Assembly (NCBI GenBank): GCA_003116975.1
Contig: BGKB01000165.1
Span: forward strand, 1 to 64,000
From: Aurantiochytrium sp. KH105
Taxonomy: Eukaryota; Sar; Bigyra; Thraustochytrida; Thraustochytriidae
Length of the DNA stretch: 64,000 nucleotides
Direction of reading: 5' to 3'
Shown one piece after another: positions 289-49,549 of this stretch (the stretch's first letter is position 1; every line of letters begins with the position of its first letter). The notes under the pieces were generated by a model, which saw only the letters and a list, made by a program, of their open reading frames with translations, was not told the DNA's origin and ran no database searches. Both the position numbers and the translations under genes were made by a program.

Positions 289-3081
289 CTTCCTCGGGAG
301 AAACAAAAGAAAGTCTCGTTCGACGCCTGCAGCTGCAGCTACAGCTGCATGCCTGTCTCGCTGGTGGCTGAATAAATGATGGGTTGCAGATTGGGCGAGC
401 GATCTTCCCGCCCAAGTCTGGCTGCTGCCTAGCCGACCGTGCTGAATGCACCTGGGAACTCGGCGGAAGGCACGACTTCGCCGCGCACAATGGCTTGTGT
501 CCCTCGGCTTCTGACCAACTTGGTTTTTTCAACGCCGAGCTCGTTCAAACGGACTGGCAGGCCGTCTGACACTGACATGCCAAAGAATGAATTGACTGTG
601 AGGTCCGAGGGTTCATATCAGGCGCGCCTCGCTGTCGCGGTTCTTCTTGGGCGCGAATGAATGTTCGCGCAGTTTGTTTTGTTTGGTCGGCAGTGCCGGG
701 CGGCACCCTCCCGCCTCCCACCTCGCCTCCAAGTGCGCAGCCGCGGTGGCTGCTCGCTTATCCACCACTGTCAGGCCTCTGCATCATTCATTCATTCATT
801 TTGCCTGTCATTCATTCATTTTTCGCCAGCGTGGCCGTCCGGCCGACCGCGGACCAATTCCTGGGGCTCGCAGTGCACGCGCGGACCGGCCAGGCGGCTC
901 GTTAGCCTGGCCGCTAGGCGGGGCCCCGTCCCCGCCGCTTTGATTCCATCGCTGCTTCACCACCCCCTCGCCCGCGCGTGGCAAACGCCGCCGCCGTCGT
1001 CCGCGTCGCGTCGCGCTGCGCCGGTGCGCTCAAAGGTGGTGGGCGGTGGTGCCTGGCGGTCAGGTTCGATGGCGGCGTGCGAGCTCTGGCCGCTGTTTTT
1101 GGTCCGTCGCTGAGACATATTGCCATATACTACACATACTACGGTCAGTCGTTTGGCTGGAACGCGACTCCATTCCTCCCACTCCGGAGCCACGCGGTGG
1201 CGACAGCAGCTGCACTGCAGCAACCCCGCCTCCGCCGCCGCCGCAGGCCGCCCCGCCCTCTCGCGGCTGGCTGGCTTGGACTCGGGAGCTTGCATTTGCG
1301 ACAAGACTGTCGCGACTTCGCGGCAGCAGCAGCTGGCCGGCCGGCCGCGGTATCCGACCGGAGGAGCGCAGCGCGGCAGTGCATGGCGAGCTCGATGACA
1401 TTCATTTTTGGCAGGGCGCGTCACGGCCAGCCTCGATCATCGCACTTACTCCAGTCATACATCCACCATGCTACACACATTCATCACGCCGGCAGACTTG
1501 GCACTTTGGCGCCTTCCTCCCCCTGCACCCCGCCGAGAAGGGCGGAGCGGTCGAGGCGACGCGGAGTTCGGAGGGAGGAAGACCGCGCTGCGGACGCTCC
1601 AGTGTGCACGCACGCACGCACGCACGCGCGCCGCAGCAGCAGTCGCAGCGGCAGCGGCGGCGGCCAGCCCCCGCCGCGAGCACGGCTTGAGAGGGCGTTG
1701 GGATGACCTGCCTCTGCGGCTTGCCGCGTTTTTGAGCTTGGAGGCGAGCACGGTAATTCCCATGGCGCACACCGCGAGCGCGCAGTGCAGGGGCGGGGCC
1801 CCGCGGCGGGCGGCACGCTCACGAGGCAGAGAGAAAAACGGAGTTCGTTCTCGTCGCGTCACATGCTGCTGCAGCAGCAGCTGCGATGCTGGCGCTGCTA
1901 CAGCTGCGGCGGCTGCTCCCACCCGCCTCTGCCGCGCGGAAAACAGGGGCCTTCGCGGTACAAGCGAGAGGACGCGCGTGTGCGTGCATGTGCCTGGGTG
2001 CTGAGAATGAAAGTTTGAAAGAAAAGGAAGGGAGTAGCGTGTGTGTGTGTGTGTGAGAGTGGGTGAGTGAGTGGGTGAGAGTGTGCGCGCTGCTGCTGCT
2101 GTTGGTCGCAGGTGCCGGGCGCTTCGCTTTGTCCAAGCGACGCGAGCGACAGGCCGGCCGCTGCACGCGCGCAGACGGCCGCCGCGGTGGGTGTCTGTCC
2201 TCCTGCCTGTCGCGCGCGCGCCCTCGCTTCGCGCGTCCTCGGCCGCAACCAAGCCCGCGAGCAAGGAAGTTTAACGCGCGCGACTCGACATGTCTCAAGT
2301 TGGCAAACTTTCTCGCTTCGCAATTCCACCAGCCTCCGTCCCTCCCCGTCCCTGGTCGGCCGCCTCGGCGCACGTCCCAGGTAGCCCTGGCCGTCGCGTG
2401 GCGCCCCATCGCGGTCCAGCCCAGCCCGTGCGTGCCGGCCAGCGACGGCGCCCGCCTCGGCGCAGTCGCGGGTCGGCCTGCGCCGCTCGCCGCCTCCTTG
2501 CGCGCGGGGACATGTCGGCACGCGAGCCTCGCGAGAATCCGCGCGACTCGACACAACCCAGGTCCGCGTTCGCGGGAGAGGCGCCACGCGGTGGCGCAGC
2601 GGCGGCGGCGCTGCCAAGCGGGCGGCGAGGGTTCTGGATACGTGCTCGTCGGGCGCGAAGACGCGACACCGTCGGCACGAGCGTGGCGCGCGGGCCCGCC
2701 CGGTCCGGCCCGGCGAGCGAGCGAGCGCGTGCTGTATGTATATACTCGGGCGGTCGGCCGGGTTCGCCCGGGAGAGGAGGAACATACGCGGGGGCGCAGG
2801 AGGAGGAGGAGGGAGGGAGGAGGGCGGTCGCAGGCGGTACATCGGGAGTGTCGTCCCCTGGCCGGTCGATCGGTTCAGCCGAGGGAAGGAAGGGGCGCGG
2901 AGGAGGCGGAGATGCGAGAGGAAGATGGGCGAGGGCGGAGAGGACGGCGGGGTCGCGCGGCGGAGTTCGGGAGGTCTTGCCTTCGCTCGCGAGGCCGAGG
3001 CAGGCTTGGTTTCGAACTTTGTTGTTATCTTGTGCTCGTGTCGGAGGGCGCTTCTTCTTTCTTAGTAGTTGCAGGTCTAAG

Positions 3082-3211
<130 letters not shown>

Positions 3212-3846
3212 TCTTTCTTTTCTTTTCTTTCTTTTTCTTTTCTTTTCTTTTTATAATTTTTCTTTTTCTTTTCTTTTGTTTCGTTTTCTTTTCGTTAGTT
3301 CTGTGAGGGGGCGTCCGACAAGAGGCTAGGGCTGAATTGCGGTTTTCTTGGAAAGAAACGAAAAAGGAAACCGGGAATCGGAGGAAGGAAGGCAAGGGAA
3401 GGCAGGTGGGGGAAGGAGAGGAGGGAGAGCCTTTTTGCGACAGCGCCCTGAGAATTCGTTTCAGCGCGCACGGGCCTCGCAAGTTCAGGTTCGCTCAGCG
3501 CCAAAAGTTCCCTCTTCCCTCCCTGCGATTCGACGACTCTCGCCTCTCGGAGGAGAAAAGAAGAAAAGTAAAAAAAATAGAAAAGAAAGAAAAAGGAAAG
3601 TAAAAAGAAGGGACGCCTGGCTGGCGGGTGGGAGAGAAAAAGGAATCCGATGGGAAAAGGAAGGAGCGAACGACGAAAAGAATAGAGAATGGAAAAAGAG
3701 AAAGAAAGAAAGAAAGAAAGAGGGAATAGAGGACCGACCGGGACTCGCTTCGCAGGCGCGCCTCGCCAAACCCGCAACCTCGCGAGCCGCGCCGAGTCCA
3801 GAAGCACAAGCACAAGCACGCTTGACCCGAGCCCGACCTCGCGAAG

Positions 3847-6333: not shown

Positions 6334-6693
6334 ATGCCTTTTCTTCGCGTTCTCACCAATGTCGCTTTTTCTGCGCAGGACAAGATGAAGTTTGCGAAAG
6401 CATTGACCAAGGTCTCTGCAGAAGCCCTCGCCAAACCTGTTCCCACTGTCATGATTAGCATCGAGACGAATGCCGATGGTCTCGTCTTTGCAGGGACTTC
6501 TGACCCTTGTGCCATGGTACACATCCAAGGCGTTGGCTGCGAGTTTTCCAAAGCTCTTGAACCCGTCGTGCTTGCCATAACAGACCACACCAAAATCCCA
6601 GAGCCTCGCATCTTTCTGAACCATATCGACTTTCAACCCACCGAATGGGCCATGGGTCGTCGCACCATCGCCGAGATTCGTGCCAAAGCTTGA
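6334..6693 (+). CDS. MIF: MIF-like tautomerase, copy A
   Basis: A 119-residue protein of the macrophage migration inhibitory factor/D-dopachrome tautomerase family (usual length about 115). The frame opens further upstream, but this ATG is chosen because it puts Pro directly after Met. That Pro is the family's catalytic N-terminal base, exposed after Met removal. The active-site Lys is present (K34), as are the family stretch SDPCA and the RIFLNHIDF strand. The CxxC of animal MIF is missing, since the Cys is followed by AMV. Keto-enol tautomerase activity is expected from the family; the natural substrate is unknown. It precedes a dynamin-like GTPase gene, and a second tautomerase gene lies beyond the GTPase pair (14814). 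Confidence 0.9.
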   Translation: MPFLRVLTNVAFSAQDKMKFAKALTKVSAEALAKPVPTVMISIETNADGLVFAGTSDPCAMVHIQGVGCEFSKALEPVVLAITDHTKIPEPRIFLNHIDFQPTEWAMGRRTIAEIRAKA

Positions 6694-6952: not shown

Positions 6953-8484
6953 GTGGGGGCTACTTTACAACTTGTATAGTATCACACTATCCCCAAATTA
7001 GTGAAATGTTCTTCTTCCTCATTATCTACCCCGATATTCTTCGAAGATCTAAAAAGAAGTTCTAAAGTGCCCTACTTGCTCGGCACGTGCACGACAAGAA
7101 AAAGCATTTCTGCTCAGGAAAACCAATTCTTCAACCAGAAGAACTGTCGGCTTCGACACGAGAGAAGACCGATCGGCAACAAGAAGACCTGCCTGCCTCG
7201 ACGGGAAAGATGGCCGACGCCGCGAGCGAGAGCAGTTGGACGCGCGTGGACCGGACCGCCTTCGAGGTTCTTGCTATCGACGGAAGCGCCAGTGTTACAG
7301 ACGAAGACGTCCGAGCCGCGTACGACGAGCAAGCAAGCAAGGCGACCGACGACCATCAGCGCCAGCGCCTTCGTGAGGCGTTCCAGACGATCGAGACAGA
7401 AGCTTTTCGTGCAGGCTATTGTCTCGCGCTTTCAGTTTTTGACGATCAAAGCCACGATGGATTCTTTGACAACGCACAAGTCGAGCCCCGAGCAGATCCC
7501 GTACATAGCAAAGGGATTGCTGGCATCCTCTGTGCCCCAGACGCACCGTATGCTAGACTGCTCCAGGCAGCTATGCAGGTCCAGGGCCGATTCGAGCTCG
7601 AGCTTCCGCAGATCGTCGTCTGCGGCACTGAGAGCCAAGGAAAGTCCTCGACTCTTGAGCGCATCGCCATGCGAGACATCTTTCCACGCGACCGCAGATT
7701 CTGCACGCGGCTGCCAGTACGTCTCATGCTACGCACGAGTCGGCATCAGAACCAGGTCACGATTCGTGTCAAGGACCTCAACACAAACGAGATTACGCGT
7801 GAGACCGAGCCGCAAATCTGTGTGACGGGAGACCAGACCGACGAACCATTTTCTTCGCAGGTCTCGGAGCTCATTCGCGAGTTCATCAGCGACGAGCATC
7901 CCGACGATAAAGGTCGTCAGGTGGTCATCGACCGCGAAGTTCAGATCGAGATTCGAGCTCCGTCGGTGCCAACAATCGACCTTGTCGATCTGCCTGGCAT
8001 AGTGGCCGCACCCGAACATGCCAGGCAGGCCACGACGCACATTACACAACGCATGCTGGCTCAAGAGCACGTTTTGGTGCTAGCTGTGGTCTCTGCGCAA
8101 TCAGAAGCGCTCAACAGCAACGGCATCTGGCCTTTGCTGCACGAGGCCAACAAGCCATCGATTGTGGTACTGACTCGGGTAGATTTGGAGGGTGGCGAAG
8201 AGGATCTCCGCGCGCGGCTTGAGCGCGACCCAGAGGTCATGCCGGATGATGTTCGGATCGACTTTGTCGTTCCCGTAGCGAACCGCGATACGCGAAAACA
8301 CATCGACATGGATAGTCTACGAGACTCGTATACTCGAGAAGAGACCGCGCTGCGGGCCGCATGCGAGATGGAAGGCATGGAGTATGATGTGACGAAGCAT
8401 GGCATGCCTGGTGTTCTGCACGCCTTGAACGAGATGATTCGCGCGTACATGCGCGACGAGTGGGTGGATGCAGAGCTTCAGCGT
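6953..8484 (+). repeat. Near-identical tandem block, copy A
   Basis: About 1.53 kb that reappears at 11826-13357 at a constant offset of 4873 bp. It begins abruptly 257 bp before the GTPase start codon and ends at about codon 424. By eye there are roughly a dozen base differences and two amino-acid changes. Beyond it only one further near-identical island (about 8522-8615) remains. This indicates recent duplication or gene conversion limited to the promoter and GTPase half. Confidence 0.95.
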
Positions 8485-11337
8485 TGTAAAGTTGCTTTTC
8501 GAGAAATCTTCGATGATCTTTTGGATCTCGGTACCACGCCTGAAGCCATCAAGCCGGAAGCGATTGTGTCTGAGATTAGAAAGGGTCTCGATGTATTCAT
8601 GGATATGCCAACATCGAAGCTGCTACAAGAAGTCGGGAGTCCTCTTGATTTCCCCAAGTTGCACGAGCTCCCGGATTTTGTGCCGTATCTTCGCAGAGCG
8701 CATCATGTGAAAGAGTGCGAGGCAATGATCAGGGAAAATATCATGAATTCCATCAGTTCGTCATGGGAGAACTTCAAGGCCCTCGCGATGCACGAGATTC
8801 TCGACAAGTCCGAGCTTCCGCTCAAGATTGGGCGTTTTTGCTTTGTCGCGGAGCACATCGGGACCACATTAGAAGAAGCTTATTGCGCTGCGCGCGGCGT
8901 AATCATCGAGGAAGCAACGCGGTGCGCGTTGAGCACACTGCGGGGAGCTCTCGTGAATGGGAGCGATCGGCTTGATATTTGCCACTTCTTGTCTGCTGTT
9001 CACGAGTCAGCGAGCATAAGCCTCGTGTGTTCGTTCTCGACGACCGCTCTGTCCGAAAGGCTCTTTCCTGGATGTGAATTCGATCTCAAAGAAATTGATG
9101 ACGTAGCGGGAAAGCGCGCAGACATTGAACAGCGGATAGATGCAATCTACCTGTCTGTGCAGGTGCTGTTCGAACTGCAAGGCTTCGACAGCGTACTGGC
9201 AGACTTGGTCATACGTGCCAAAGATCTCGTCGATGAAGGCGTCCCTGAGAAATTGGGAGTTCTGGTAGAGGACACGTCTTTCCCCAATGACTTGCTATTT
9301 GGCACTTTTGCAAATGTGCTAATCAAGTTTCTATTTCTTGATGCGATTGAGTATGCACAAGAGCACATGGATCTTCCAGATGATGGTTTCGATGTTTTGT
9401 TAAGATATCCTCCGGCCGTCTTGAAGTTGATTCAATTAACTGAGGGAAAAGTTCTTTCTTTCGTGGCTCGAAATAGCGACCTCTTAGAGGACAGGGCCTT
9501 CTTGCTCTCTCTCTATTATAGCGAGAGTGAAAGTGGCGGGGAAGAACACCAAAACGATTACGACGAAACGAAGAATGAGGAGGGTTGGTGGAAGCATATG
9601 ATCTTTGAGCACGTCCCAAAACATCTGTGGTGTGATAAAGAGATGCTTCTGGAAGCATTCAAGTATACAGGTTCTGACGAGGTACTCGAATATCTACGCG
9701 AGTCTGGTTCGAGCTTGCTCGCAGACAAAGACATCCTGCTGTCCGCGGTTCTGAAATCTCCTGGCGCTATTAAATATGCGCCGGCGCAGTTGAAAACAGA
9801 CAAAGACATTGCGCAGCTTGCAGTTGCGCAAGGGGTTTGGGACTTTGTGTCCTTACCTCCAGCAATTCATGACGAGAAAAAAGTGGCGGTTGCAGCAGTC
9901 AAAACGGATGGACTAAACCTCTGCTATCTTTCGCCACATTTGCAAGCCGACAGAAAGCTTGTCACCCACGCGCTTAAGCAAAATGGATTAGCGCTGGAGT
10001 ATGCGTGGTATCCTCTACGCGATGATCGCAAGCTCGTAACGCTTGCGGTGTCGAAAAATGCGTTAGCCCTCCAATATGCTTCTCGTAGCCTGCGGAATGA
10101 TAGGAAACTGGTGACGCTGGCCGTAAAGAGGTATGGCTCGATGCTTCAGTATCTGCCTTCCAACCTTCGAGACAACAAGAATATCGTCGCGCTCGCGCTG
10201 GCAAAGAATGGACTGGCACTCAAATATGCCTCCGAGACTCTTTGCGCTGACAGAGGGCTCGTCAAACTCGCGGTATCGAAAGATGGACTGGCACTTCAAT
10301 ATGCGTCTTCTGCACTTCGAGACGACAAAGAGATCGTTGCGCTCGCGATGGCACAAGATGGGTCGGCCCTCCAATACGCATCGATTGATCTTCGTGGAGA
10401 CAAAAAATTTGTCACGCGTGAGGTTGCGCGGAATGTCTTGGTGCTAAAATATGCCTCCACTTCTCTTCGTAGAAACAGAGCGCTCGTCACGGAGGCGGTG
10501 AAAAAGAATACGATTGCACTCGCATTTGCTTCCCCTACTCTCCGGGGAGACTCAGGCCTCATCGAGCTTGCGGTGTCGAAGGATGGATCGGCGCTTCGAT
10601 TCGCATCTAGCATCGTTCGCCGCAGCAGGGCGCTTGTCAAGCTCGCAGTATTGAAAGATGGAAGGGCGCTTGAATATGCACCTGCGACTCATCGAGCTGA
10701 TGAAGAGCTCGTTACGATTGCAGTGGCGAAGAACGGAGAAGCTCTTCAGTTTGCGTCACCTGCTCTTCGGGCTGACAGGCAGATTGTCCCTCTCGCTGTG
10801 TCAAAGTGTGGCATGGCGCTTGAGTATGCGTCCACAGCCCTTCAAGGCAACAGAGAAATCGTTTTGATTGCTGTGACGATGAATGCATTCGCCCTCCAAT
10901 TCGCATCACCTGTCCTTCAAGGCGATAAGGAGATAGTGAGGGAAGCGGTTCGTGGAAAGGGCTTGGCGCTGGAATTCGCGTCGTCCAAATTGAAGGATGA
11001 CGACGAGATCGTATTCATTGCCTGTGAGGGGAATGCAAATGCAATACGCTTCGCCAGTTCGAGGCTCCAAACGGCTGAAATCGAGAAGAAGAAGAAGCGA
11101 GAGCGCGAACGAAGGGCAAAACTGGAACGAAAAGAAGCTAGAGCAAGGCGAGACTTATGGAGATCGAAGTGTAAGTCAAGGAAGGAAAAGAGGGAGCTAT
11201 TCCTCAGACGCGAACAAAACATATCATCGGAGAGGATGCAAGAGGAAGCAAAAGAAAGGAGAGAACGATGGAAAAAAAGAAGCGAGAGCAGAAGAAAAAG
11301 ACGAGCAAAGATCAAGATGCGGGGATTGTTCTCATAA
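7210..11337 (+). CDS. Dynamin-like GTPase with C-terminal DUF4116-type repeats
   Basis: A 1375-residue large GTPase. Residues 10-75 resemble a J-domain (FEVLAIDGSASVTDEDVRAAY) but lack HPD. The dynamin-type GTPase domain follows, with P-loop GTESQGKSS (139-147), G3 DLPG (260-263) and G4 TRVD (322-325). A helical stalk-like region runs to about 800. Residues about 822-1288 are some eighteen tandem 25-residue repeats of the type ALQYASxxLRxDKEIVxxAV, which match the DUF4116 pattern. The last 85 residues are extremely basic. Dynamin relatives self-assemble on membranes and hydrolyse GTP; the repeats could be a binding surface, but that is inference. I chose the ATG at 7210 (GGAAAGATGG context); the frame stays open to 7087. 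A second, shorter copy starts at 12083. Confidence 0.85.
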   Translation: MADAASESSWTRVDRTAFEVLAIDGSASVTDEDVRAAYDEQASKATDDHQRQRLREAFQTIETEAFRAGYCLALSVFDDQSHDGFFDNAQVEPRADPVHSKGIAGILCAPDAPYARLLQAAMQVQGRFELELPQIVVCGTESQGKSSTLERIAMRDIFPRDRRFCTRLPVRLMLRTSRHQNQVTIRVKDLNTNEITRETEPQICVTGDQTDEPFSSQVSELIREFISDEHPDDKGRQVVIDREVQIEIRAPSVPTIDLVDLPGIVAAPEHARQATTHITQRMLAQEHVLVLAVVSAQSEALNSNGIWPLLHEANKPSIVVLTRVDLEGGEEDLRARLERDPEVMPDDVRIDFVVPVANRDTRKHIDMDSLRDSYTREETALRAACEMEGMEYDVTKHGMPGVLHALNEMIRAYMRDEWVDAELQRCKVAFREIFDDLLDLGTTPEAIKPEAIVSEIRKGLDVFMDMPTSKLLQEVGSPLDFPKLHELPDFVPYLRRAHHVKECEAMIRENIMNSISSSWENFKALAMHEILDKSELPLKIGRFCFVAEHIGTTLEEAYCAARGVIIEEATRCALSTLRGALVNGSDRLDICHFLSAVHESASISLVCSFSTTALSERLFPGCEFDLKEIDDVAGKRADIEQRIDAIYLSVQVLFELQGFDSVLADLVIRAKDLVDEGVPEKLGVLVEDTSFPNDLLFGTFANVLIKFLFLDAIEYAQEHMDLPDDGFDVLLRYPPAVLKLIQLTEGKVLSFVARNSDLLEDRAFLLSLYYSESESGGEEHQNDYDETKNEEGWWKHMIFEHVPKHLWCDKEMLLEAFKYTGSDEVLEYLRESGSSLLADKDILLSAVLKSPGAIKYAPAQLKTDKDIAQLAVAQGVWDFVSLPPAIHDEKKVAVAAVKTDGLNLCYLSPHLQADRKLVTHALKQNGLALEYAWYPLRDDRKLVTLAVSKNALALQYASRSLRNDRKLVTLAVKRYGSMLQYLPSNLRDNKNIVALALAKNGLALKYASETLCADRGLVKLAVSKDGLALQYASSALRDDKEIVALAMAQDGSALQYASIDLRGDKKFVTREVARNVLVLKYASTSLRRNRALVTEAVKKNTIALAFASPTLRGDSGLIELAVSKDGSALRFASSIVRRSRALVKLAVLKDGRALEYAPATHRADEELVTIAVAKNGEALQFASPALRADRQIVPLAVSKCGMALEYASTALQGNREIVLIAVTMNAFALQFASPVLQGDKEIVREAVRGKGLALEFASSKLKDDDEIVFIACEGNANAIRFASSRLQTAEIEKKKKRERERRAKLERKEARARRDLWRSKCKSRKEKRELFLRREQNISSERMQEEAKERRERWKKRSESRRKRRAKIKMRGLFS
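9672..11073 (+). repeat. Coding array of about 18 DUF4116-like 75-bp repeats
   Basis: Each unit encodes about 25 residues with hydrophobic, aromatic and Asp/Arg positions held in register (ALxYAS, LRxDR, LVxxAV). The units differ at the DNA level, so the array is old and kept by selection on the protein rather than a recent slippage product. Confidence 0.85.
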
Positions 11338-11825: not shown

Positions 11826-13357
11826 GTGGGGGCTACTTTACAACTTATATAGTATCACACTATCCCCAAATTAGTGAAATGTTCTTCTTCCTCATTATCT
11901 ACCCCGATATTCTTCGAAGATCTAAAAAGAAGTTCTAAAGTGCCCTACTTGCTCGGCACGTGCACGACAAGAAAAAGCATTTCTGCTCAGGAAAACCAAT
12001 TCTTCAACCAGAAGAACTGTCGGCTTCGACACGAGAGAAGACCGATCGGCAACAAGAAGACCTGCCTGCCTCGACGGGAAAGATGGCCGACGCCGCGAGC
12101 GAGAGCAGTTGGACGCGCGTGGACCGGACCGCCTTCGAGGTTCTTGCTATCGACGGAAGCGCCAGTGTTACAGACGAAGACGTCCGAGCCGCGTACGACG
12201 AGCAAGCAAGCAAGGCGACCGACGACCATCAGCGCCAGCGCCTTCGTGAGGCGTTCCAGACGATCGAGACAGAAGCTTTTCGTGCAGGCTATTGTCTCGC
12301 GCTTTCAGTTTTTGACGATCAAAGCCACGATGGATTCTTTGACAACGCACAAGTCGAGCCCCGAGCAGATCCCGTACATAGCAAAGGGATTGCTGGCATC
12401 CTCTGTGCCCCAGACGCACCGTATGCTAGACTGCTCCAGGCAGCTATGCAGGTCCAGGGCCGATTCGAGCTCGAGCTTCCGCAGATCGTCGTCTGCGGCA
12501 CTGAGAGCCAAGGAAAGTCCTCGACTCTTGAGCGCATCGCCATGCGAGACATCTTTCCACGCGACCGCAGATTCTGCACGCGGCTGCCAGTACGTCTCAT
12601 GCTACGCACGAGTCGGCATCAGAACCAGGTCACGATTCGTGTCAAGGACCTCAACACAAACGAGATTACGCGCGAGACCGAGCCGCAAATTTGTGTGACG
12701 GGAGACCAGACCGACGAACCATTTTCTTCGCAGGTCTCGGAGCTCATTCGCGAGTTCATCAGCGACGAGCATCCCGACGATAAAGGTCGTCAGGTGGTCA
12801 TCGACCGCGAAGTTCAGATCGAGATTCGAGCTCCGTCGGTGCCAACAATCGACCTTGTCGATCTGCCTGGCATAGTGGCCGCACCCGAACATGCCAGGCA
12901 GGCCACGACGCACATTACACAACGCATGCTGGCTCAAGAGCACGTTTTGGTGCTAGCTGTGGTCTCTGCGCGATCTGAAGCGCTCAACAGCAACGGCATC
13001 TGGCCTTTGCTGCACGAGGCCAACAAGCCATCGATTGTGGTACTGACTCGGGTAGATTTGGAGGGTGGCGAAGAGGATCTCCGCGCGCGGCTTGAGCGCG
13101 ACCCAGAGGTCATGCCGGATGATGTTCGGATCGACTTTGTCGTTCCTGTGGCGAACCGCGATACTCAAAAGCACATCGACATGGATAGTCTACGAGACTC
13201 GTATACTCGAGAAGAGACCGCGCTGCGGGCCGCATGCGAGATGGAAGGCATGGAGTATGATGTGACGAAGCATGGCATGCCTGGTGTTCTGCACGCCTTG
13301 AACGAGATGATTCGCGCGTACATGCGCGACGAGTGGGTGGATGCAGAGCTTCAGCGC
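11826..13357 (+). repeat. Near-identical tandem block, copy B
   Basis: Second copy of the 6953-8484 block, including 257 bp of upstream sequence. Both copies therefore probably share promoter elements. Its left edge is sharp: the sequence before 11826 does not match the sequence before 6953. Confidence 0.95.
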
Positions 13358-14248
13358 TGTAGAGAGGCCCTCAAGGTTCGCTTTAGCGACCTCTGGGATC
13401 TCGGTACCACGCCTGAAGCCATCAAGCCGGAAGCGATTGTGTCTGAGATTAGTAAGGGTCTCGATGCATTCATGGATATGCCAACATCAGAGTTGCTCAA
13501 GGACATGCAGCTCCCTGTCTGCTTCAAGTTTATATTGGATTTCCCGAGGAGCGCACCTCTCGTGCGCAGAGCATACCTTCTCAAGAATCATGAGGCTGAA
13601 GTGAAAAATCACATCGCAGCTCTCACGTACTCTGCATGGGAGAGCTTCAAGGCGCTTGTAATGCGCGACGTCATCGATGGATCTAGAATTCCGCTCAAAA
13701 TTGGGCGTTTCTCCTCCATCAGAGAGCATATCGGAACGACCTTGGAAGACAGTTTTCGCGCGGCGAGTGACTCAATCATCGAGGAAGAATTTCTCCGTGT
13801 AATTTTGCAGCTGAAGGATGCTCTCACAACCAGAAGCGATGAACTTGATACTGACGTGATTTGGGCGGATATTTACGAGTCTGTGATCATGAATATCATT
13901 TGCAGGTTCTCAACAGAGACTCTGACTGAAAGACTCTTCGCCACCATCGACCTTGAGCTCAGGGAGGAATACGGCGTCGCCGTGGGGCGTGTGAAAATCG
14001 AGGAGCAAATCGATGCCATTTACCGCACCGTGCAAGTGCTTCAAGAGCTGCGTGGCCTCGACGATATCCCCGACGATTTTCAAGGTGCGAAAGGTCTCAT
14101 TAAGGGTGGTGTCACCGATGAATTATTGGCATTACTTGAGGCTGGGATTATTCATACGAGTTTCCTCTTTGGCACCATCGAGACTGTCTTGCAAGAGACA
14201 GGTGTTGAATTTACTGCCTACCTACTTGGGGATGATGGCACTTGGTAG
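12083..14248 (+). CDS. Dynamin-like GTPase, short copy without DUF4116 repeats
   Basis: A 721-residue tandem duplicate of the gene at 7210. The first roughly 424 residues, including the degenerate J-like segment and the GTPase motifs (P-loop GTESQGKSS, DLPG, TRVD), differ by only two residues. The stalk-like region then diverges strongly apart from one island (TTPEAIKPEAIVSEI). The protein ends with GDDGTW at about the place where the long copy goes on to its repeat array. No frameshift is seen; the stop looks natural and the divergent half keeps an open frame, so it is probably functional. It could act as a partner or regulator of the long form, since dynamin-family proteins oligomerise through stalk regions; that is inference. 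The MIF-like gene at 14814 follows. Confidence 0.85.
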   Translation: MADAASESSWTRVDRTAFEVLAIDGSASVTDEDVRAAYDEQASKATDDHQRQRLREAFQTIETEAFRAGYCLALSVFDDQSHDGFFDNAQVEPRADPVHSKGIAGILCAPDAPYARLLQAAMQVQGRFELELPQIVVCGTESQGKSSTLERIAMRDIFPRDRRFCTRLPVRLMLRTSRHQNQVTIRVKDLNTNEITRETEPQICVTGDQTDEPFSSQVSELIREFISDEHPDDKGRQVVIDREVQIEIRAPSVPTIDLVDLPGIVAAPEHARQATTHITQRMLAQEHVLVLAVVSARSEALNSNGIWPLLHEANKPSIVVLTRVDLEGGEEDLRARLERDPEVMPDDVRIDFVVPVANRDTQKHIDMDSLRDSYTREETALRAACEMEGMEYDVTKHGMPGVLHALNEMIRAYMRDEWVDAELQRCREALKVRFSDLWDLGTTPEAIKPEAIVSEISKGLDAFMDMPTSELLKDMQLPVCFKFILDFPRSAPLVRRAYLLKNHEAEVKNHIAALTYSAWESFKALVMRDVIDGSRIPLKIGRFSSIREHIGTTLEDSFRAASDSIIEEEFLRVILQLKDALTTRSDELDTDVIWADIYESVIMNIICRFSTETLTERLFATIDLELREEYGVAVGRVKIEEQIDAIYRTVQVLQELRGLDDIPDDFQGAKGLIKGGVTDELLALLEAGIIHTSFLFGTIETVLQETGVEFTAYLLGDDGTW

Positions 14249-14813: not shown

Positions 14814-15176
14814 ATGCCTTACATCAAGGTGACGTGCAGCGTGGAGCTGGACAAGGCGACCAAGACGGAGGTTGCCATGGCCGTCACCAAGGCTACCTCC
14901 GAGGGCTTTGGTAAGCCCACCTCGGCCGTCATGGTCAGCGTTGACACCTCAGAGTGCCTCATGTTTGCGGAGTCCATGGATCCCTGCGCCGTCGTCAATG
15001 TCCAGGGTATCGGCGGCGAGCTTTCTCAGGTCCTCAAGCTTCTCTCGGCCGCCGTGCACGAGCACACCAAGATTCCTGAAAACCGCATCTTTGTTAATAT
15101 GGTTAGTTTTGAGGCCACCTTTTGGGGTAGAGGACAGCTCACCATTGCAGAGCATCGTGCAGCTGCGGCGCCGTAA
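14814..15176 (+). CDS. MIF: MIF-like tautomerase, copy B
   Basis: A 120-residue MIF/D-dopachrome tautomerase family protein. Pro2 (the catalytic base after Met removal) and K34 are present, with MDPCAVVNVQGIGG and the RIFVNMVSFE strand in the usual places. As in the first tautomerase, the animal CxxC is absent. The frame runs upstream to 14502, but only this ATG gives the Met-Pro start. The leader directly before it has a GCAAGCAAGC run. It is clearly homologous to the protein at 6334 but well diverged, so the two are not part of the recent block duplication. They bracket the GTPase pair, all on the plus strand. Confidence 0.9.
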   Translation: MPYIKVTCSVELDKATKTEVAMAVTKATSEGFGKPTSAVMVSVDTSECLMFAESMDPCAVVNVQGIGGELSQVLKLLSAAVHEHTKIPENRIFVNMVSFEATFWGRGQLTIAEHRAAAAP

Positions 15177-15760
15177 GAAGTCCCCAATCATTGCAAAGCA
15201 ATCTCAGTTTCTATTCTTTCACAGTTGAGTTCTGCGCGACCGTCCCATCCCGTGTTTTCCAGCAGCGATCGGCTCGAAAATGTAGCACAACCGTCTTGTA
15301 CTCTCGGGACAATCGCGTTTCGTTTTCATCGTCAGAGCTCCAGATCCGTGTATTTATCGCTCAAACGATGAATGTCTACATTTCAGTCTTGCGAGTCAGT
15401 GAGCTGCACGTAGCATGAGAACCCAAGCTTCCTTGCCGACCTTGCAGTCAGCTTCTCTCTCGCATCTCTCGCTGGTGCGCAGAGGTCTTTTTCTTGATTT
15501 GCATAGTACAGAGAACCGGCTGGGCTCCCTCTCATGCGTTAGACGTGTACGTCAGACTTGCCCGTTCAAGCACCCGCATCGCTCTCGCGTATGCCCTTGC
15601 TCTTCTCGAGGATTTCCCAACGCACTCGCCGGTCGGCATCGGAATGCCCTCTCCAGCTGGCTGAATGATCCGGCGACCACCGAGCTATCTCTCTCTCTGC
15701 TCAGAACATGAAGCAGAGAGCACACTCCGAATCGGAGGACCACAGAACCCCAACAAGCTC
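15177..15760. other. Intergenic spacer, no gene seen
   Basis: Holds the 3' end of the tautomerase gene and the leader of the HscB-like gene. No repeat or RNA gene recognised. Confidence 0.5.
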
Positions 15761-16573
15761 ATGATGTTGCGCGCAAGCTGGACGGTGGCACGGCGCGCCG
15801 CGACGGCGGCGGTGGCGAGCCCCAGCCCGCTGGGCGGGTCCGCGCCGCGCGCAGGCGCTCTCGTCGCCGCGACGCGCTCCGCGCCGGCAGCAGCAGCAGC
15901 AGCGACCCTGGGCGGTCATGGCGGCGCTGCGCTTCGGGCAAACTTCGCGACGACTTCAGCGTCGACCGCCGAGGAGAAGAAGAAGCCGTGCTGGAACTGC
16001 AGCGCAGCGGTAGGCTCTGCGGAGCTGTTCTGCGACAAGTGTGAGCACCTGCTCGCCCCTGACGAGGAGGCGAGTCACTTTGAGGTTCTCGGACTCGAGG
16101 AGTCCTTTGACGTCGACATCAAAAAGCTGGAAAGGGACTTTTGGTCGCTGCAAAAGAAACTCCATCCGGACCGCTTTGGGTACAGACACGAGACAGAGCA
16201 AGACTTCTCGGCAGAGCACTCGTCGCGAGTCAATGATGCCTACAAGGTGCTGAAAAGCCCCATTGATCGGGCAATTTACATGCTCGAGAAGCGCGGTGTC
16301 ACTGCACTAAGCGAGGGCGGGTCATCCGATGTAGACCCGGCAGTCCTCATGAGCGTCATGGAGACACGCGAGGAGCTTGCAGATGCCGAGACAAGCGAAG
16401 AACTCTCACGTCTCGAAACCGTCGCGCGCAATGATGAGGATCGCCTTATTGCTCAAATTTCCGACGCCTTTGCGCGCGATGACCTCGAAACAGCAACACG
16501 TGCCGCCATCGAGCTGCGATATGCGACCAAGCTGCGTGAAGAGGTGGAGGCGAAGAGAGTTTCTCAAATGTGA
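15761..16573 (+). CDS. HSCB: Mitochondrial Fe-S co-chaperone HscB/Jac1
   Basis: A 270-residue J-type co-chaperone for Fe-S cluster transfer. It delivers the scaffold ISCU to mitochondrial Hsp70 and stimulates its ATPase. The first 60-70 residues are Ala/Arg/Ser-rich with no acidic residues, a good mitochondrial presequence. A zinc-binding tetracysteine follows (C77-x2-C80, C91-x2-C94), as in animal and plant HscB. The J-domain begins SHFEVLGL and has the catalytic HPD at 135-137 (LHPDRFG), then the SSRVNDAYKVLKSPIDRAIYML segment in shortened HscB style. The C-terminal helical domain (SVMETREELADAETSEEL onward) is the ISCU-binding part. Two Met codons are adjacent at 15761 and 15764; either could start. 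Its chaperone partner mtHsp70 is the next gene, convergent, 616 bp away. Confidence 0.93.
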   Translation: MMLRASWTVARRAATAAVASPSPLGGSAPRAGALVAATRSAPAAAAAATLGGHGGAALRANFATTSASTAEEKKKPCWNCSAAVGSAELFCDKCEHLLAPDEEASHFEVLGLEESFDVDIKKLERDFWSLQKKLHPDRFGYRHETEQDFSAEHSSRVNDAYKVLKSPIDRAIYMLEKRGVTALSEGGSSDVDPAVLMSVMETREELADAETSEELSRLETVARNDEDRLIAQISDAFARDDLETATRAAIELRYATKLREEVEAKRVSQM

Positions 16574-31696: not shown

Positions 31697-34600
31697 CTAT
31701 TCTTGTCATTGGCGGACTCTGATGAAAAGAACGATGCACGCGATTTGGGAGAGCATTGAAAGCCATGAAGAATGTACAATCGCAGACAAGAAGGCAAGGC
31801 GTGCTTGTACTATTTGGCAGGCAGCAAGTCCTTGGCCCCATCACTATAAGAACGACATGATGCGAATGAATCGAAAGGAAGAGGCCGCTGCCGGCGAACG
31901 AGATCGCGTCGCTCCAGAGAAGAAGGAAGAGACTACGCCGTGGGGGATTGTACACATATGTTCACGTTTGTAAGCAAGTTGAGTTTGAGTTTATTCACTC
32001 ATCGCGAGTTCGCGGGCGTGAGTCCCTTCTCCCTTTCTTTTCTTGTGATCAAAATGTTTGTCTCATCTGCGGCCAGGTGCTCCGCGCAGCGCGACCTGTT
32101 GACTGCTGCTCTGCTGCTGCGATGAAATTTCTTGCTTTTAAGAACAAGCCTTGCACATTCCAGGAGTACGTAGGCCCGGCCCGCACGAATGATCAGACTT
32201 CACTTCAGAGTGAATTATGACAATAATTTCTTTACTCGCCTGCCTGGTTGGATGAACAATTCGCGCGAGTGAAGGAGAAACGCGGGCTACGCTTGCGGCG
32301 CCGCTCGCGACCTGCGCTTCTTCTTTATTTTCATTTCCAGTGGCACAAGAACCAAGATTCCTTTCATCATAGCTGGCTGAGTGATGAGGAGCAACCCGAC
32401 TCGCGATGAGCCAGACCCCGGAACGCGCCGCCACCAACGAAGATTGCAATTTTCTGGTTCGCCTGGCTGGCAGAGGCGACGTTACGTAGTACAACGCCGC
32501 ATCTTTCATTCACATCAAGCAAGAGCAGGCTAAAAGATCTAGGAAAGCGTTCCGCTCACGCTGGATTCCGCTCGCCTCGGAAGGATCCGTGGTAGTTCCC
32601 GCCGGCCGCTGCTGATGCTACCGTACGAGGGCTGCTTCCATCATGAGGACGTGTACGAAAAGCGGGGCGTTGGGCGACGGCCCGAGCATCGCTCCCTTTC
32701 TCTCCAAACTGCGCCCGCTCACTGTCAGCGGCGCTGCAGGCCGGTCTGCCGGCGAGCCAGCGCGAGCGAGGTCGCAGCTGCCGGCAGAAAAGCGGCGCTC
32801 GCCCTCGCTGCGTCGCCCTCGTCCTCGTGCTCCACGATGGTCGCCTGCCTGCCAGCCAGGTGGGCGTGCGCCCACTCCGGCACGCGCACCGCCAGCCAGA
32901 CCGGGCTGGGCGAAGGCCTGCCTGGCTGCCAGCGCAGGGCTCCCTCCGGTCCCTCGACCCTCGCTTGCGTTCCCCCGGCGCGGCCGCACGGGGGCCGCGG
33001 GCTCGAGGGCTCGAGGCAGGGGAGCGGGATTGCGAGCAGCCGCGGCAGAGGCGCGGGATCCAAATCGAAGGTGGATTCGCGTCAGATCAAACCAAACCAA
33101 GTCAGATCGAAGAGGCGGGATTCAAATCGATGCGGCCAGCATCCACCATGGCCAACAGACAGAAAGAAAGCGGCCATGGTGGCTAGGAGAGAGTCAGCAA
33201 AGAGGCAGGCGAAGCCAAGATCCCACCCGCCCTCGCTCGCCAGCGGTTCCCGGGCCTGCTGGCTGGGTGGCTGTCTGGCTGTCTGTCTGTCTGTCGGCGG
33301 CAGCGGCGGCGCAGGTGCAGCGGGTTCAAGCGCCGCGGCGCTGCGTCGCGCGTCGACAGCGGCGAAGGGAGCGCGGCGCTGGCTGTGGCTCGGCGGACAG
33401 AAAGAAGCTGCACAGGTTTCGGGAGGGCCGGCCGCCACTGCCACGTGCGAGTCGCGGGCGGCTGTGGGGCCTCCATCTCGCAGGTGGAGAGCGCGCCGCG
33501 GCAGGCTTCTTCATACATTCATTCTCGCTCTCGGGCGGGGCGAGCGAGGCGGAGGCAGGCGCAGTGCAGTGCAGGCGACGGTCCAGGGCGAGAGCAAGAG
33601 CAGAGCGTGTGCGCTGCAGAAGAAGAAGAAGAAGAAGAAGAAGTAGAAGAAGGGGAATTGGCGGGAGAGCGGAGGGGAAGCGTCCGGAGAGATGGAGGTT
33701 GTGGCTGGCTGGCTGCCTCACGGGACTTACTCGCTTGCTTTCTCCCGCACCTCACCCCTGACTGTGACTGGCGAGCTGCTGCTGAGGTGACCTCCCGTCC
33801 TCTTTTTCTTTTTCTTTCCTACTCTCTCACGCTCTCATCTTCTCAGTAGCTTGCGGAATCAACCGCGAGCAAGCTTCAGCTGCCGGGGCTGCGGCACGGT
33901 GGGAAACTGCGGGGCGCGGCGGCCTTCTTTCTATCTCAGCAGGGTCACTGCAAGTCCGTACGGCAGTTCCCGGAAGATGCGGGAAGGGGCGACGAACCCC
34001 GCAGCCGCGCTTGTGAGGAGGCACCACTGGGCGGCGTCCAGCGTCGGAAAGCGTTTCTGGAGTTCCCGCCTTAATTTCCAAATAACCGCCTTGAGGGCGG
34101 AGGAGTCAAACGCGCTGTTTAAGGCGGCGCCGCGACCGGGAGGTGGTTTTTGCCATGCTAGATGGGCCCTGGCGGTACACACCCCCATCCACCCTCTCAG
34201 CTCTCATCAGTCGTGCCGGCCTGGGCGGTCGGGCGTCGCAGGTGGTCTGCTCTGCCGCGAGACATGTCATGTCCACCAACCGGGCGACCGGGCGGCCAAC
34301 GGACGCACGCACGACCGCCGCACATCGATCGCTGCACAGCCTCGGCCTCTTCCTTTCCCGTCCCCGGCGCGCAGAGCCGCGTGAAACGCGCGTCTGCGGC
34401 GGAAGAAAGCAAGCGAGCGAGCGCGCGAGCGAGCGTGGCGCGCGAAAAAGAAACAAAGAAAAGAAACAAAAGGCGGAAAGGAAGGTTTCCAAGTCTCGTC
34501 GAACGTGGAAACCAGCCAGTCGAGAAGAAAAGAAGGAAAAAAAAAGGGGGGGGGCGGGCGCGGGAAAGAACGAGTGGGCGGGGCGGCGGGAAGTGCGGAA

Positions 34601-45755: not shown

Positions 45756-47864
45756 TCACGTCAACCAACAAAGAAGGACCGCGAGGTGCAGCAGCGCAGT
45801 ATAGCCAACAAGAAACACCCGACCTCGCGAACGCGTCAAAAAGGCGTTGCACACCGTAAGAGCGAGACGCTCGACTTGCGGAATAGTCTGGTACATGCGC
45901 TCGGATTCTTGCTGCTTGAAGGCCTTGAGCGGGTCAATATCCGACTCGTAGAGACCGCGATAGCGATGTTCAACGCCGCGACCGAGGCCTCCGACTTTGA
46001 CGAGGCCTTGTGCATTGAAATGCGCGCCACCCGATTTAGATGCCGCGCCTTCCTCGAGGTCCGCGTTTTGGCCGGAGGGGAGACCGCCGTCGGAAATGAG
46101 CGTGGACCTCTCGCTGACTTTGTAGTTTTGCAAGAAGCGAATGCGCTGGTAAAGCTGTACATTGTCCTCTTGCATTGAGCGCATGCGCTGCTCTCCGTCT
46201 TGAATCCTTCGTCGCTGCGTGTCCAGCTCTTCTTCATTGGCCTGGAGTTGGGCGCGAAGTCGATTGCGTTGCGCACAGACAGCTTGCAACATGCTATTGA
46301 GCGCCTGCACCTGCTTTTGTGATTTCGGCGCGGGCATGGATTCAGACGCAGTCGCTGTCGAAGACATGGAAGTCTGCGGGTCACCACCGGCAGTACCGGC
46401 AGCAGAAGGGTCATCCGCCATGGTCTGTACGGCGGACATTTCACCAGAGCTCTGTGCAGAGGCCGATCCAAGGTCCATATCACTGAGATCGAGGACAGGT
46501 TTGACCGGCATCGTCGGCAACGACGACGTGCCGAGGGCAAGGTCGCTCTCGAGCTTGGCGGCGAGATCGCGCTGATCCTTGAGAGCATCCCCGAGGCGCT
46601 GCTCGGTCTCCCTAAGCATGCGAATTTCAGCGCGCTGATCGTCGATTGTCATTCTAGCGGTCATGAGATCTTCTTTCAATTGTCGCGTCGATTTGACAAA
46701 AAAGGCCTCGAGACTGTCAGGCTGCTCCTCTGGCGCCGCGCCGCCGGCAAGGTCGTCCTCGCCATCGTCCTGAACGTTGTACAATTCACGTTGGATCAAG
46801 GTCAACTTGCGGCGCAAGCGATCATGGTCTTCGCGAGATACGGCAGCGCCAAGTTGCTCGCGAGCTTGCGAGAGCTGGTCCGATTTTGCCGCCAGCGCTT
46901 GAGTTAGCGAGTTGACTTCTTCTTGCTGCTGCGTCCGTAAGTGGTCCGCTTCTTCGCGAGCGGCCGTAATTTCTGCAAGAAGACGACTCTGCTCATCTTG
47001 AGCAGCCTGGAGATCGCGCAAGAGTCTGGCATTCTCCTCTTTGAGTGAAAGGTGGCCAGCGCTGGAGGAAGCATCGTCTGGGCCAGGGCTCTGGCGCTCA
47101 CGTTCGCGGAGCGCGCCTAATTCCTGGAGCTGTCCCTCAAGAACCTGGACGCGACCGGTCTGGGTCTCGAGGTCGTTCTGTGCGAGCTCCAGCTGCATGC
47201 TGATGTTCGCGAGCTCTTCGTCAGCCTTGGCGCGCGCCTCAGCAAGTTGGTCTTGGTACTTTTGGTCGAGCTCCTGGGCAATCGTTTCGCGGCGTTCTGC
47301 CTCTTCGGCGCGAATGAGCTCGAGCTCTGCGGCAGCGGCGTCTGCGTCCTCGCTCGCATTTTTGTTTGCTTTGCTCTGAAAGACTTTGGCAGCTTCGAGT
47401 TTCTTTTGGAGCTTGGCAATTTCCTGATCCTTTTCGAAACAGGCCTGCTTGAGCTGCGATGTCTGCATCTCGGCGTCAAAGGAGATGTGCGAAGCCTCGG
47501 CGAGCGCGTAGCTTGGGTCTGGCGCTTCGCGAATGAGTCTATACATGCTTAGAAAGCAATTCTCGGCAAATTTGGCCCGAGTCGTCAGCGAGTCGACTTC
47601 TTCCTGATACGATCGTAGTAGCTTACGGACCGCCGTTTTCACGACACTGTTTTCGTCGGCTTTGCGCACATCCTCTCGCTTCTTGAACTCGCGCGTCTTG
47701 GTCGCGAGCTTATTCCGCGAGCTTGTGCACGTTTCCCGGTACTCGGCGACCTTGCTGGCCTGGTCGTCGAGCGCCAGCTGCACGTTGCCCAGGTCGATGG
47801 CCTGCCAGGCCTCGAGCACCGACGTCGCGCTCGGGGTCTCGCTCATCTCCGCACCGCCCTCCAT
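45756..47864 (-). CDS. CASP: Golgi coiled-coil protein CASP (CUX1 short-form family)
   Basis: 702 residues from MEGGAEMSE (47864); MSE at 47846 is an alternative. CASP is a C-terminally anchored Golgi golgin that tethers vesicles in retrograde traffic. The N-terminal signature is present (VLEAWQAIDLGNVQLALDD, then SSRNKLATKTREFKKRE). The middle is almost entirely coiled coil. The C-terminal CASP domain has NVQLYQRIRFLQ, HRYRGLYESDIDPLKAF and QVERLALTVCNAFL, then one membrane helix of about 18 residues ending at the C-terminus. It is transcribed divergently from another Golgi membrane protein gene (48683), with 818 bp between the starts. Confidence 0.93.
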   Translation of the reverse strand: MEGGAEMSETPSATSVLEAWQAIDLGNVQLALDDQASKVAEYRETCTSSRNKLATKTREFKKREDVRKADENSVVKTAVRKLLRSYQEEVDSLTTRAKFAENCFLSMYRLIREAPDPSYALAEASHISFDAEMQTSQLKQACFEKDQEIAKLQKKLEAAKVFQSKANKNASEDADAAAAELELIRAEEAERRETIAQELDQKYQDQLAEARAKADEELANISMQLELAQNDLETQTGRVQVLEGQLQELGALRERERQSPGPDDASSSAGHLSLKEENARLLRDLQAAQDEQSRLLAEITAAREEADHLRTQQQEEVNSLTQALAAKSDQLSQAREQLGAAVSREDHDRLRRKLTLIQRELYNVQDDGEDDLAGGAAPEEQPDSLEAFFVKSTRQLKEDLMTARMTIDDQRAEIRMLRETEQRLGDALKDQRDLAAKLESDLALGTSSLPTMPVKPVLDLSDMDLGSASAQSSGEMSAVQTMADDPSAAGTAGGDPQTSMSSTATASESMPAPKSQKQVQALNSMLQAVCAQRNRLRAQLQANEEELDTQRRRIQDGEQRMRSMQEDNVQLYQRIRFLQNYKVSERSTLISDGGLPSGQNADLEEGAASKSGGAHFNAQGLVKVGGLGRGVEHRYRGLYESDIDPLKAFKQQESERMYQTIPQVERLALTVCNAFLTRSRGRVFLVGYTALLHLAVLLCWLT

Positions 47865-48682
47865 GCTTCTCAAATACAATCTGGTCTGCTCCCTGATCTG
47901 GTCTGATCCAATCCGATTCAATCAGATCTGATTCGATGTGGTCTGATCTGACCTGATCCAATCTACCCCGATGTGATCTGACTGTCGCCTTCGCCTTCGC
48001 CTTCGCCTTCGCCTTCGCTGCCGCTGTCGCTGCTGTCGCAGGTGTCGAGGTCCAGAACGAGGTCGAAGGAGCCAGTTGACCTGCTCGTCGTCGCCTCGCC
48101 GCGTGCGGGCGAGCGCGCGCGCAGGCAAGAAAGAGCGACGCAGCGCCCGCTCTCCCGCGGCAGCGCGCCCCCGTGTCCGCCGGCGCCGCGCCGGTCCCGC
48201 CCGGACTGCCCGCGCACGAGCCGCGCGCTCGCGTTCTGCCGCCGCCGCGTCTTTCTTTCTGTGCTGCGTCTCTCTCTCGCTCGCGCTCGCGAGGCCAGGC
48301 CGCGGCACCGCTGCGGAACGCCCGCGGAACCAGGCCCGGTTTCGAAACGGCGCGCGGCGGCGGTTGCGGCGGCGGTTTCGCCAGGATACGGACGACTGAT
48401 CGACTACTTGGCGGCCGCAGACGACGGCAAAGCGTGTTCGAGCGGGGGCTTCGAGCGCGCGGGCGGCTCGGTGCGCGCGGCGGAGTCGGCGGAGGGCGCG
48501 CGCGGAGGCAGGCAGGAAGGCGCGACGCCGCGCCGAGCGCCTGGAAGAGCGCGCGCGGGAGCGCGTCGGGCTGGCGGAGATTGGATTTGAAAGGAAAAAG
48601 AAGGAAGGCCAGCAGGCCAGCAGGCCGAGGACGAGCGTGCCGCGCGCCACGTTGAAAGAAGAGGACAAGGGCGGCGGGAAAG
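47865..48682. promoter_or_regulatory. Shared divergent promoter region of two Golgi genes
   Basis: 818 bp between the CASP start and the COPI-associated protein start. Next to CASP lies a degenerate TGATC/TGGTCTGATC repeat array (about 47883-47980), then a CTTCGC run (about 47988-48021). The rest is GC-rich without a credible gene. Co-regulation of the pair is inference. Confidence 0.45.
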
Positions 48683-49549
48683 ATGGCGGACGTGGAGGCG
48701 CAGCAGCAGCAGCAGAGCGGCGGCGGGATCTGCTCGTGGTAAGTTCTTTTCTTCTCTTGTGCGGGTCGAGGAGAGCCTGGAAAACCGTCGCTGGTGTCGT
48801 GGAGGAGACGGAGAAGGAAGGAGAAGAACTGACAACCAAGGGTGACGACGCCATCGCGCGGAACCCGAACCATCTCTCTCTTTCGTGTTGCCCTCTTTGA
48901 CGAGCACAGCATCACAAACACGAACTTCAAGGAGGCTTCAACGGTGTTGCGTTTGCTAAACTTGATCAATGCGGCGCTCATAATCTTTGCGGGCGTGTGG
49001 ACCATGGTGGATCTTGGCAAGCTCGTGACTCTCAAGGTTGCGACCGTGGCCATCTCCATCTACCTTGCGTGCTTTGGCTGCGTGCTGTGCTGCTTTGAAA
49101 TGCGCATCAGCATGTTGGAGAAACCGGTCCGTAAGCGCTTCGGCTTCATGTACACGTACCTCGGCAGGACGCTCTTTCTCTTTTTCGTGGCAACGTTTTT
49201 GATCGCGCGCCAGACCACGACAACCTATGTCATTGCTGCGCTCACGTTGGCCAACACGCTGATCAACTGCTACGTGACGGTCAAGCACGGCGAGTACTAC
49301 GCGGACCCAACAGGCAAGTACACGACGGCAGAGGCGGCGACGGCCTCTTATGTGGAGCAGAACCCGCAGCTCGCTCAGGCCGCCATTGGCCACACTGTGA
49401 ATTACGCGCGGGAGAACCCTCAACTTGCGCAGGCGAGTCTCAATGCAGGCGCCCAATATGCACAGAGCCACCCGGACCAGGCCCAGCGACTTGCTTCTAC
49501 AGCCATGCACCAGTCAGGGTCCAACCCGTTCCAGGTGACCAACCAGTGA
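48683..49549 (+). CDS. COPI-associated / TVP15-like Golgi membrane protein
   Basis: Two exons, 48683-48738 and 48910-49549, giving 231 residues; the splice joins TG to C as Cys. A short polyQ N-terminus is followed by four predicted membrane helices (roughly 29-50, 58-80, 97-113, 117-136). The order is VLRLLNLINAALIIFAGVW, IYLACFGCVLCCFEM, FGFMYTYLGRTLFLFFVATF and IAALTLANTLINCY. The conserved FGxxxxxLGRxLF element matches the COPI-associated protein family (Pfam COPI_assoc, including yeast TVP15). The cytosolic tail has three related NPQLAQA/HPDQAQR repeats and ends in NPFQVTNQ; NPF is an EH-domain-binding motif. It likely acts in Golgi vesicle traffic. CASP is its divergent neighbour. Confidence 0.87.
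48739..48909 (+). other. Intron of the COPI-associated protein gene
   Basis: 171 bp, GTAAGT donor and CACAG acceptor. The first exon encodes MADVEAQQQQQ in AAGATGG context. Without splicing the second-exon frame has no comparable start. Confidence 0.8.

Follow-up and report, generated by a model that had tools for sequence, protein, structure and literature searches.

We report a gene that fuses a dynamin-type GTPase to an array of DUF4116 repeats. It lies in a 64,000-nucleotide stretch of the thraustochytrid Aurantiochytrium sp. KH105 (positions 1 to 64,000 of contig BGKB01000165.1, or C165; we call this whole stretch the window). The gene, g1 (7210-11337; the forward strand holds g1 and its parts, as well as g2, the shared cassettes, and the single-copy segment described below), encodes 1,375 amino acids (aa) in one uninterrupted frame and is the first of a tandem pair. 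Its array is found on one only of two collinear contigs, so it is apparently carried by one chromosome copy. We tentatively propose that g1, a GTPase of the dynamin superfamily, has a C-terminal sensor that can be swapped, and that it may act in cell-autonomous defense or in self-recognition.

The open frame spans 7087-11337 and has 1,416 codons without a stop. The ATG at 7210, which gives 1,375 aa before the stop at 11337, aligns with the start of the seven other family members described below. In Pfam, the protein matches both Dynamin_N (E = 1.3e-19; 71.3 bits, against a curated cut-off of 27) and DUF4116 (PF13475; E = 8.4e-123 over 14 stretches; 400 bits, against a cut-off of 24.9). This bears out a sequence-only reading of the window, which had placed a GTPase and then repeats in a single frame at 7210-11337 and had suggested this Pfam check. 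The motifs it listed can be read directly: the P-loop GTESQGKSS (7624-7650), DLPG (7987-7998), and the G4-like TRVD (8173-8184), which lies 3' of the match to the GTPase core.

The protein begins with a segment that is conserved in the family (aa 1-75; 7210-7434). By eye, this segment is possibly J-domain-like; Pfam's RPT gives a weak match to it in three of the eight members (best E = 7e-4). The Dynamin_N core (aa 135-304; 7612-8121) is supported by the profile and the motifs. It is followed by a family-specific region in the position of a dynamin stalk (aa 431-705; 8500-9324), which is of the type that we call X. Next is an acidic linker (aa 706-835; 9325-9714), which is helical from aa 791 in a structural model and perhaps includes degenerate repeat units, as judged by eye. 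The sequence-only reading had counted about 18 repeats of 25 residues and a very basic tail. There are exactly 18 gap-free units (aa 836-1285; 9715-11064), and the tail (aa 1286-1375; 11065-11334) has a net charge of +23 over its 90 residues.

The array is old and under constraint at the protein level, rather than being a recent DNA repeat. On average, pairs of units are 38% identical in amino acids, versus 8% if the residues are shuffled (maximum 9.5% in 200 shuffles). Among lags of 20-30 residues, the only one with a positive mean BLOSUM score is 25 (+1.55, versus -0.71 to -1.09 for the others). At the nucleotide level, the units have a mean identity of just 51% (maximum 71%), and at each of three conserved alanine positions, all four alanine codons are used. 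The low nucleotide identity and the spread of codons rule out a recent expansion. AlphaFold2 predicts that the array forms an alpha-solenoid with three short helices per unit (predicted local distance difference test [pLDDT] of 91.8). In this respect the model is like solenoids of the ARM/HEAT type. Structural matches to it were weak; armadillo proteins were prominent among them, and most matches covered model residues 1-233. We do not view the lack of better matches as evidence for a new fold. The GC content at third codon positions is 0.52 in the array, 0.58 in the stalk-position region, 0.64 in the GTPase, and 0.56-0.84 in six other long open reading frames (ORFs) of the window, so composition does not decide whether the array was acquired horizontally.

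The GTPase half belongs to a family of eight genes in this genome, which have the N-terminal segment and the GTPase in common; the DUF4116 solenoid and basic tail are at the end of g1 only. (The assembly comprises 76 Mb in 367 contigs, and it is the only eukaryotic genome that our searches covered.) We found no members beyond this genome in the collections we searched, and no relatives of this GTPase in phage records or viral contigs. Dynamin_N matches all eight members, and all eight places found by a genome scan score above the curated cut-off. All eight members also retain the P-loop (G-x-E-x-Q-GKSS), T166, DLPG, and TRVD; T166 aligns with the switch region of dynamins, and TRVD has an arginine in place of the usual lysine. 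By single-sequence comparison to the Protein Data Bank (PDB), the closest solved proteins to the GTPase of g1 are Drp1, Vps1, and dynamins (E = 5e-15 to 6e-9), which share Dynamin_N (PF00350) and the P-loop, DLPG, and T(K/R)xD motifs. These conserved features place g1 in the dynamin superfamily, and we predict that it hydrolyzes GTP and self-assembles. Unlike Drp1, Vps1, and dynamins, the family has its own N-terminal segment and no match to the middle domain, GED, or PH domain, and g1 alone has the solenoid. Other collections gave little: g1 had no match in PADLOC, where g2 had a hit to LeoA that we do not trust (E = 0.011); in NCBIfam, small_GTP was below its cut-off and the remaining matches were chance-like; and there was no Rfam match within the window.

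The sequence-only reading also spoke of a stalk. A region in that position does exist, and it is 42-49% identical (amino acids) between g1 and the seven other members. However, aa 431-705 has no match in Pfam, including to the dynamin middle domain and GED, and a profile of this region had no significant match in the PDB (best E = 0.15). An AlphaFold2 model of the GTPase and stalk from two input sequences has a pLDDT of 34, which is too poor to read a fold. Because of the poor model and the lack of profile matches, we use "stalk" for its position only.

The second gene of the pair, g2 (12083-14248; 721 aa), matches Dynamin_N with 71.6 bits, has a stalk of another type (Y), and lacks DUF4116. 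The two genes share a 5' cassette that comprises the upstream region, the N-terminus, and the GTPase, up to about codon 473: positions 6953-8629 in g1 and 11826-13501 in g2 are 97.8% identical, and then the identity collapses. The segment 8900-11830 was found once in the whole assembly. Outside of the cluster, from 3174 to 61988, C165 is collinear with another contig, C9, at 91-92% identity (identity is lower, 71-82%, at both ends of the window). On C9, the segment with the array has no match beyond about 8916. The C9 locus has two paralogs, which are 712 and 825 aa long if counted from the ATG that the family shares, and neither has DUF4116. C9 also has a leftover 3' fragment of a Y-type gene, from 608530 onward. 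The C-terminus of the second C9 paralog (L010; 605756-608527 of C9) carries TKDAGNKQQ as a short internal repeat, along with a different basic tail; judging by eye, it does not resemble the DUF4116 array. Five further pairs of contigs match each other around dynamin-type genes, mostly at 87-96% identity (C162 and C219 drop to 73% downstream). Because the paired contigs match each other, the assembly seems to hold two chromosome sets, which could be alleles or subgenomes.

The two halves of these genes have different histories. In the GTPase (codons 131-425), g1 and g2 have a synonymous divergence (dS) of 0.039 and the two C9 genes one of 0.019, versus 0.13-0.16 between the contigs. In the stalk (codons 480-705), dS is practically at saturation, with 2.6 within C165 and 2.2 within C9. 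Nonsynonymous divergence (dN) is 0.35-0.49 among the X, Y, and Z stalks, and 0.34 and 0.43 between Y and the two other loci, so the distance between neighboring stalks is similar to that between separate loci of the family. In a tree of the GTPase, the genes group by contig (bootstrap 98-100). In a tree of the stalk, g2 pairs with the first C9 gene (100), this pair is joined to another locus (90 from DNA, 74 from protein), and X has the longest branch. The GTPase and stalk data each reject the other's tree (approximately unbiased test, p = 3.4e-10 and 3e-96). Given this pattern of dS and trees, we conclude that homogenization of the GTPase halves took place independently on the two contigs, and that the ends remained old and distinct.

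The Y stalk itself has diverged between C165 and C9 by a dS of 0.29-0.37. In comparison, the pairs at the family's remaining two loci have a dS of 0.05-0.13, and flanking ORFs have 0.06-0.11. This last range is from nine of 12 flanking ORFs that we compared to C9, as we dropped three after seeing their values; with these three included, the range is 0.06-0.72. The dropped ORFs are 2290-3306, 32615-33646, and 47710-49059, with dS of 0.465, 0.718, and 0.316. They were dropped because they resemble non-coding frames: 130 of 338, 297 of 343, and 202 of 449 codons could be aligned, at 63%, 48%, and 71% amino acid identity, respectively.

How might g1 work? The variable outer positions of the solenoid may bind a protein or another ligand, and the basic tail could help to position g1 on a membrane or nucleic acid. 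Clustering by the ligand would then cause the GTPase to oligomerize, and the oligomer might remodel or sequester a target, as Mx proteins and other dynamins do. The locus exchanges C-terminal modules behind a homogenized GTPase cassette and differs between the apparent chromosome copies. Such module swapping, together with the difference between the contigs, is what we would expect of a locus for defense or self-recognition. The sequence-only reading had suggested that the repeats recognize and the GTPase executes. We still infer this division of labor, and it gains circumstantial support from the mosaic locus, which that reading had not described and which differs between the two contigs.

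A similar pattern is described for mammalian MxA and MxB, where gene conversion has homogenized a segment with the BSE and the GTPase and the remainder is divergent; the authors discuss this homogenization as either tolerated or selectively favored (PMC4687636). Another study extends Mx-like proteins to stramenopiles and finds dynamin-superfamily proteins of hosts and giant viruses interspersed in several lineages (PMC11789081). g1 and Mx are alike in being dynamin-type GTPases with paralogs that combine a converted GTPase segment with a divergent remainder (PMC4687636, PMC11789081). If the role of g1 is in defense, then a constant GTPase with variable ends, in a protist as in mammalian Mx, would mean that this mode of evolution extends far beyond animals. 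And since the array lies behind an enzyme of a known type, one could assay whether a ligand of the solenoid switches the GTPase. Mx proteins are not known to have a repeat solenoid.

Several observations weigh against a sensor for defense or self-recognition. The sequence-only reading described dynamin relatives as either membrane-remodeling or antiviral (Mx-type), and by E-value this GTPase is nearer to Drp1, Vps1, and dynamins than to Mx: with the single sequence, Mx has E = 0.002 or weaker, and a profile of the eight members improves this to 1e-4 at best but still ranks Mx last, behind dynamins, Vps1, and Drp1. Rather than being alleles, C9 and C165 might represent the subgenomes of a hybrid. 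The two other family loci have no structural difference between their contigs. The stalk tree has little support at its deepest branching (59 from DNA, 79 from protein), and gene conversion between tandem copies occurs without selection too. DUF4116 has no known function.

A bolder version of the sensor proposal, which we consider speculative and rather improbable, is that the locus is a dynamin-based analog of NLR receptors. Through gene conversion, a homogenized cassette of promoter and GTPase would be reused ahead of recognition ends that are old and can replace one another, one of them being the DUF4116 solenoid. Haplotypes would have different sets of these ends under balancing selection, for self-recognition or against viruses. 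The NLRs of plants and animals also join a nucleotide-binding switch to a variable repeat end. This is an analogy only: g1 has a dynamin-type GTPase instead of a STAND ATPase, and we do not claim homology.

Alternatively, g1 could be an adaptor for trafficking or for an organelle, that is, a membrane GTPase like Drp1 or Vps1 whose solenoid is simply an arm that targets or scaffolds a partner in the cell; it would then take no part in conflict. We consider this to be somewhat unlikely. Both chromosome copies should carry a housekeeping adaptor, but the array is on one only, and the Y stalks diverge between the contigs faster than the flanking genes do.

It is also possible, but more doubtful, that g1 is a dispensable chimera. 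Neutral turnover of the tandem pair, through gene conversion and unequal crossing-over, could have produced it, with the frame intact by chance. The tandem copies, their near-identical cassettes, the remnant of a Y-type gene on C9, and the long branch of the X stalk are all consistent with this. However, 1,375 aa are open, with 18 units in register. And because the conserved positions survive despite diversified codons, the array has been constrained and is too diverged for a fresh by-product. It is very improbable that the GTPase and the array are separate genes or were misjoined, as there is no stop in 1,416 codons, a diverged stalk of the family (X) sits between the two in the same frame, and the collinearity of C165 and C9 extends to either side of the cluster.

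The sequence-only reading noted that a long array after the stalk is not a standard dynamin architecture. We found no relative with this fusion, either in this genome or in 206 prokaryotic and viral loci with DUF4116. In the 76-Mb assembly, 17 candidates were scored and there were 10 matches to DUF4116, all inside g1; none of 14 control genomes had a match. The array as a query found only itself among four candidates in its own genome, although this could miss diverged copies. A scan for the unit pattern found 94 DUF4116 stretches in viral contigs and at least 111 in bacterial contigs. The 206 loci (L034-L239) comprise these 94 viral stretches, 111 bacterial stretches, and one phage locus. A hidden Markov model (HMM) built from the g1 array matches all 206 loci (205 of which had been fetched by the DUF4116 pattern), so the bacterial and phage proteins have the same 25-residue unit. 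But they lack this family's GTPase: its HMM did not match the DUF4116 ORF at any of the 206 loci, some of whose ORFs are cut by the ends of the locus. At one locus (L146), another ORF has a weak GTPase-like match (E = 0.005).

Among the records with DUF4116 matches, eight are plasmids and one is a phage. From 174 loci, we considered the 15 DUF4116 ORFs with the most residues outside of the array and scanned 10 of them for domains: LUD and BRCT were each found once above the cut-off as a single stretch. SpoVR_C at L162 exceeded its cut-off without any single stretch, and we view it as an artifact of the repeats. Some viral contigs have several DUF4116 ORFs (eight at L043, six at L037, six at L100, and five at L051). 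We also typed 10 non-DUF4116 ORFs on viral contigs, from 30 listed; with one ORF per locus, this covers 10 of the 94 stretches. Four of the 10 match VapE-like primases (L109, L055, L060, and L112), and L118 matches PriCT_2/AAA_25, so five of 10 are primase-type replication proteins. The others are a family-A DNA polymerase (L101), a ribonucleotide reductase (L099), RCC1 repeats (L081), and two with no match (L085 and L107). Judging from these genes, several of the viral contigs look phage-like. A giant-virus origin of the array was considered, but a protein-query scan of the viral contigs gave no relative. The available text of two papers that use the term DUF4116 gives no function for it (PMC8078820, PMC13119156). 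In the literature we found on DUF4116, dynamin architectures, Mx, and thraustochytrids, no title or opening of an abstract names a dynamin-DUF4116 fusion.

The genome has a second set of dynamin-type genes, which have GSINAGKS as their P-loop. Two of these form a tandem on C270 (L018; 819-7494), and others are on C162 (L021) and C219 (L022). On C162 and C219, a dynamin with GNQSSGKS adjoins this set. C162 and C219 drop to 73% similarity downstream, and C270 and C219 match at one end only (95%); these genes are possibly a second variable cluster.

PUFA (polyunsaturated fatty acid) synthases are typical of thraustochytrids. Paired contigs have matches to the PfaA-type synthase (930 bits, positions 6-1035 of 2582), which is below the family cut-off of 1010. 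Such matches also occur in 11 of the 14 control genomes, with none above the cut-off. The matches agree with a thraustochytrid (labyrinthulomycete) host, but as evidence they are weak.

The GTPase pair in the window is flanked on either side by MIF/tautomerase-like genes (6337-6693 and 14814-15176; Pfam MIF, E = 2e-11 and 6e-10). Further along, a conserved flanking gene at 15665-16573 encodes a HscB-type co-chaperone (DnaJ and HSCB_C) that is 98% identical in amino acids on C9, and 57158-61225 encodes an ankyrin-repeat protein of 1,355 aa that is 97.7% identical on C9.
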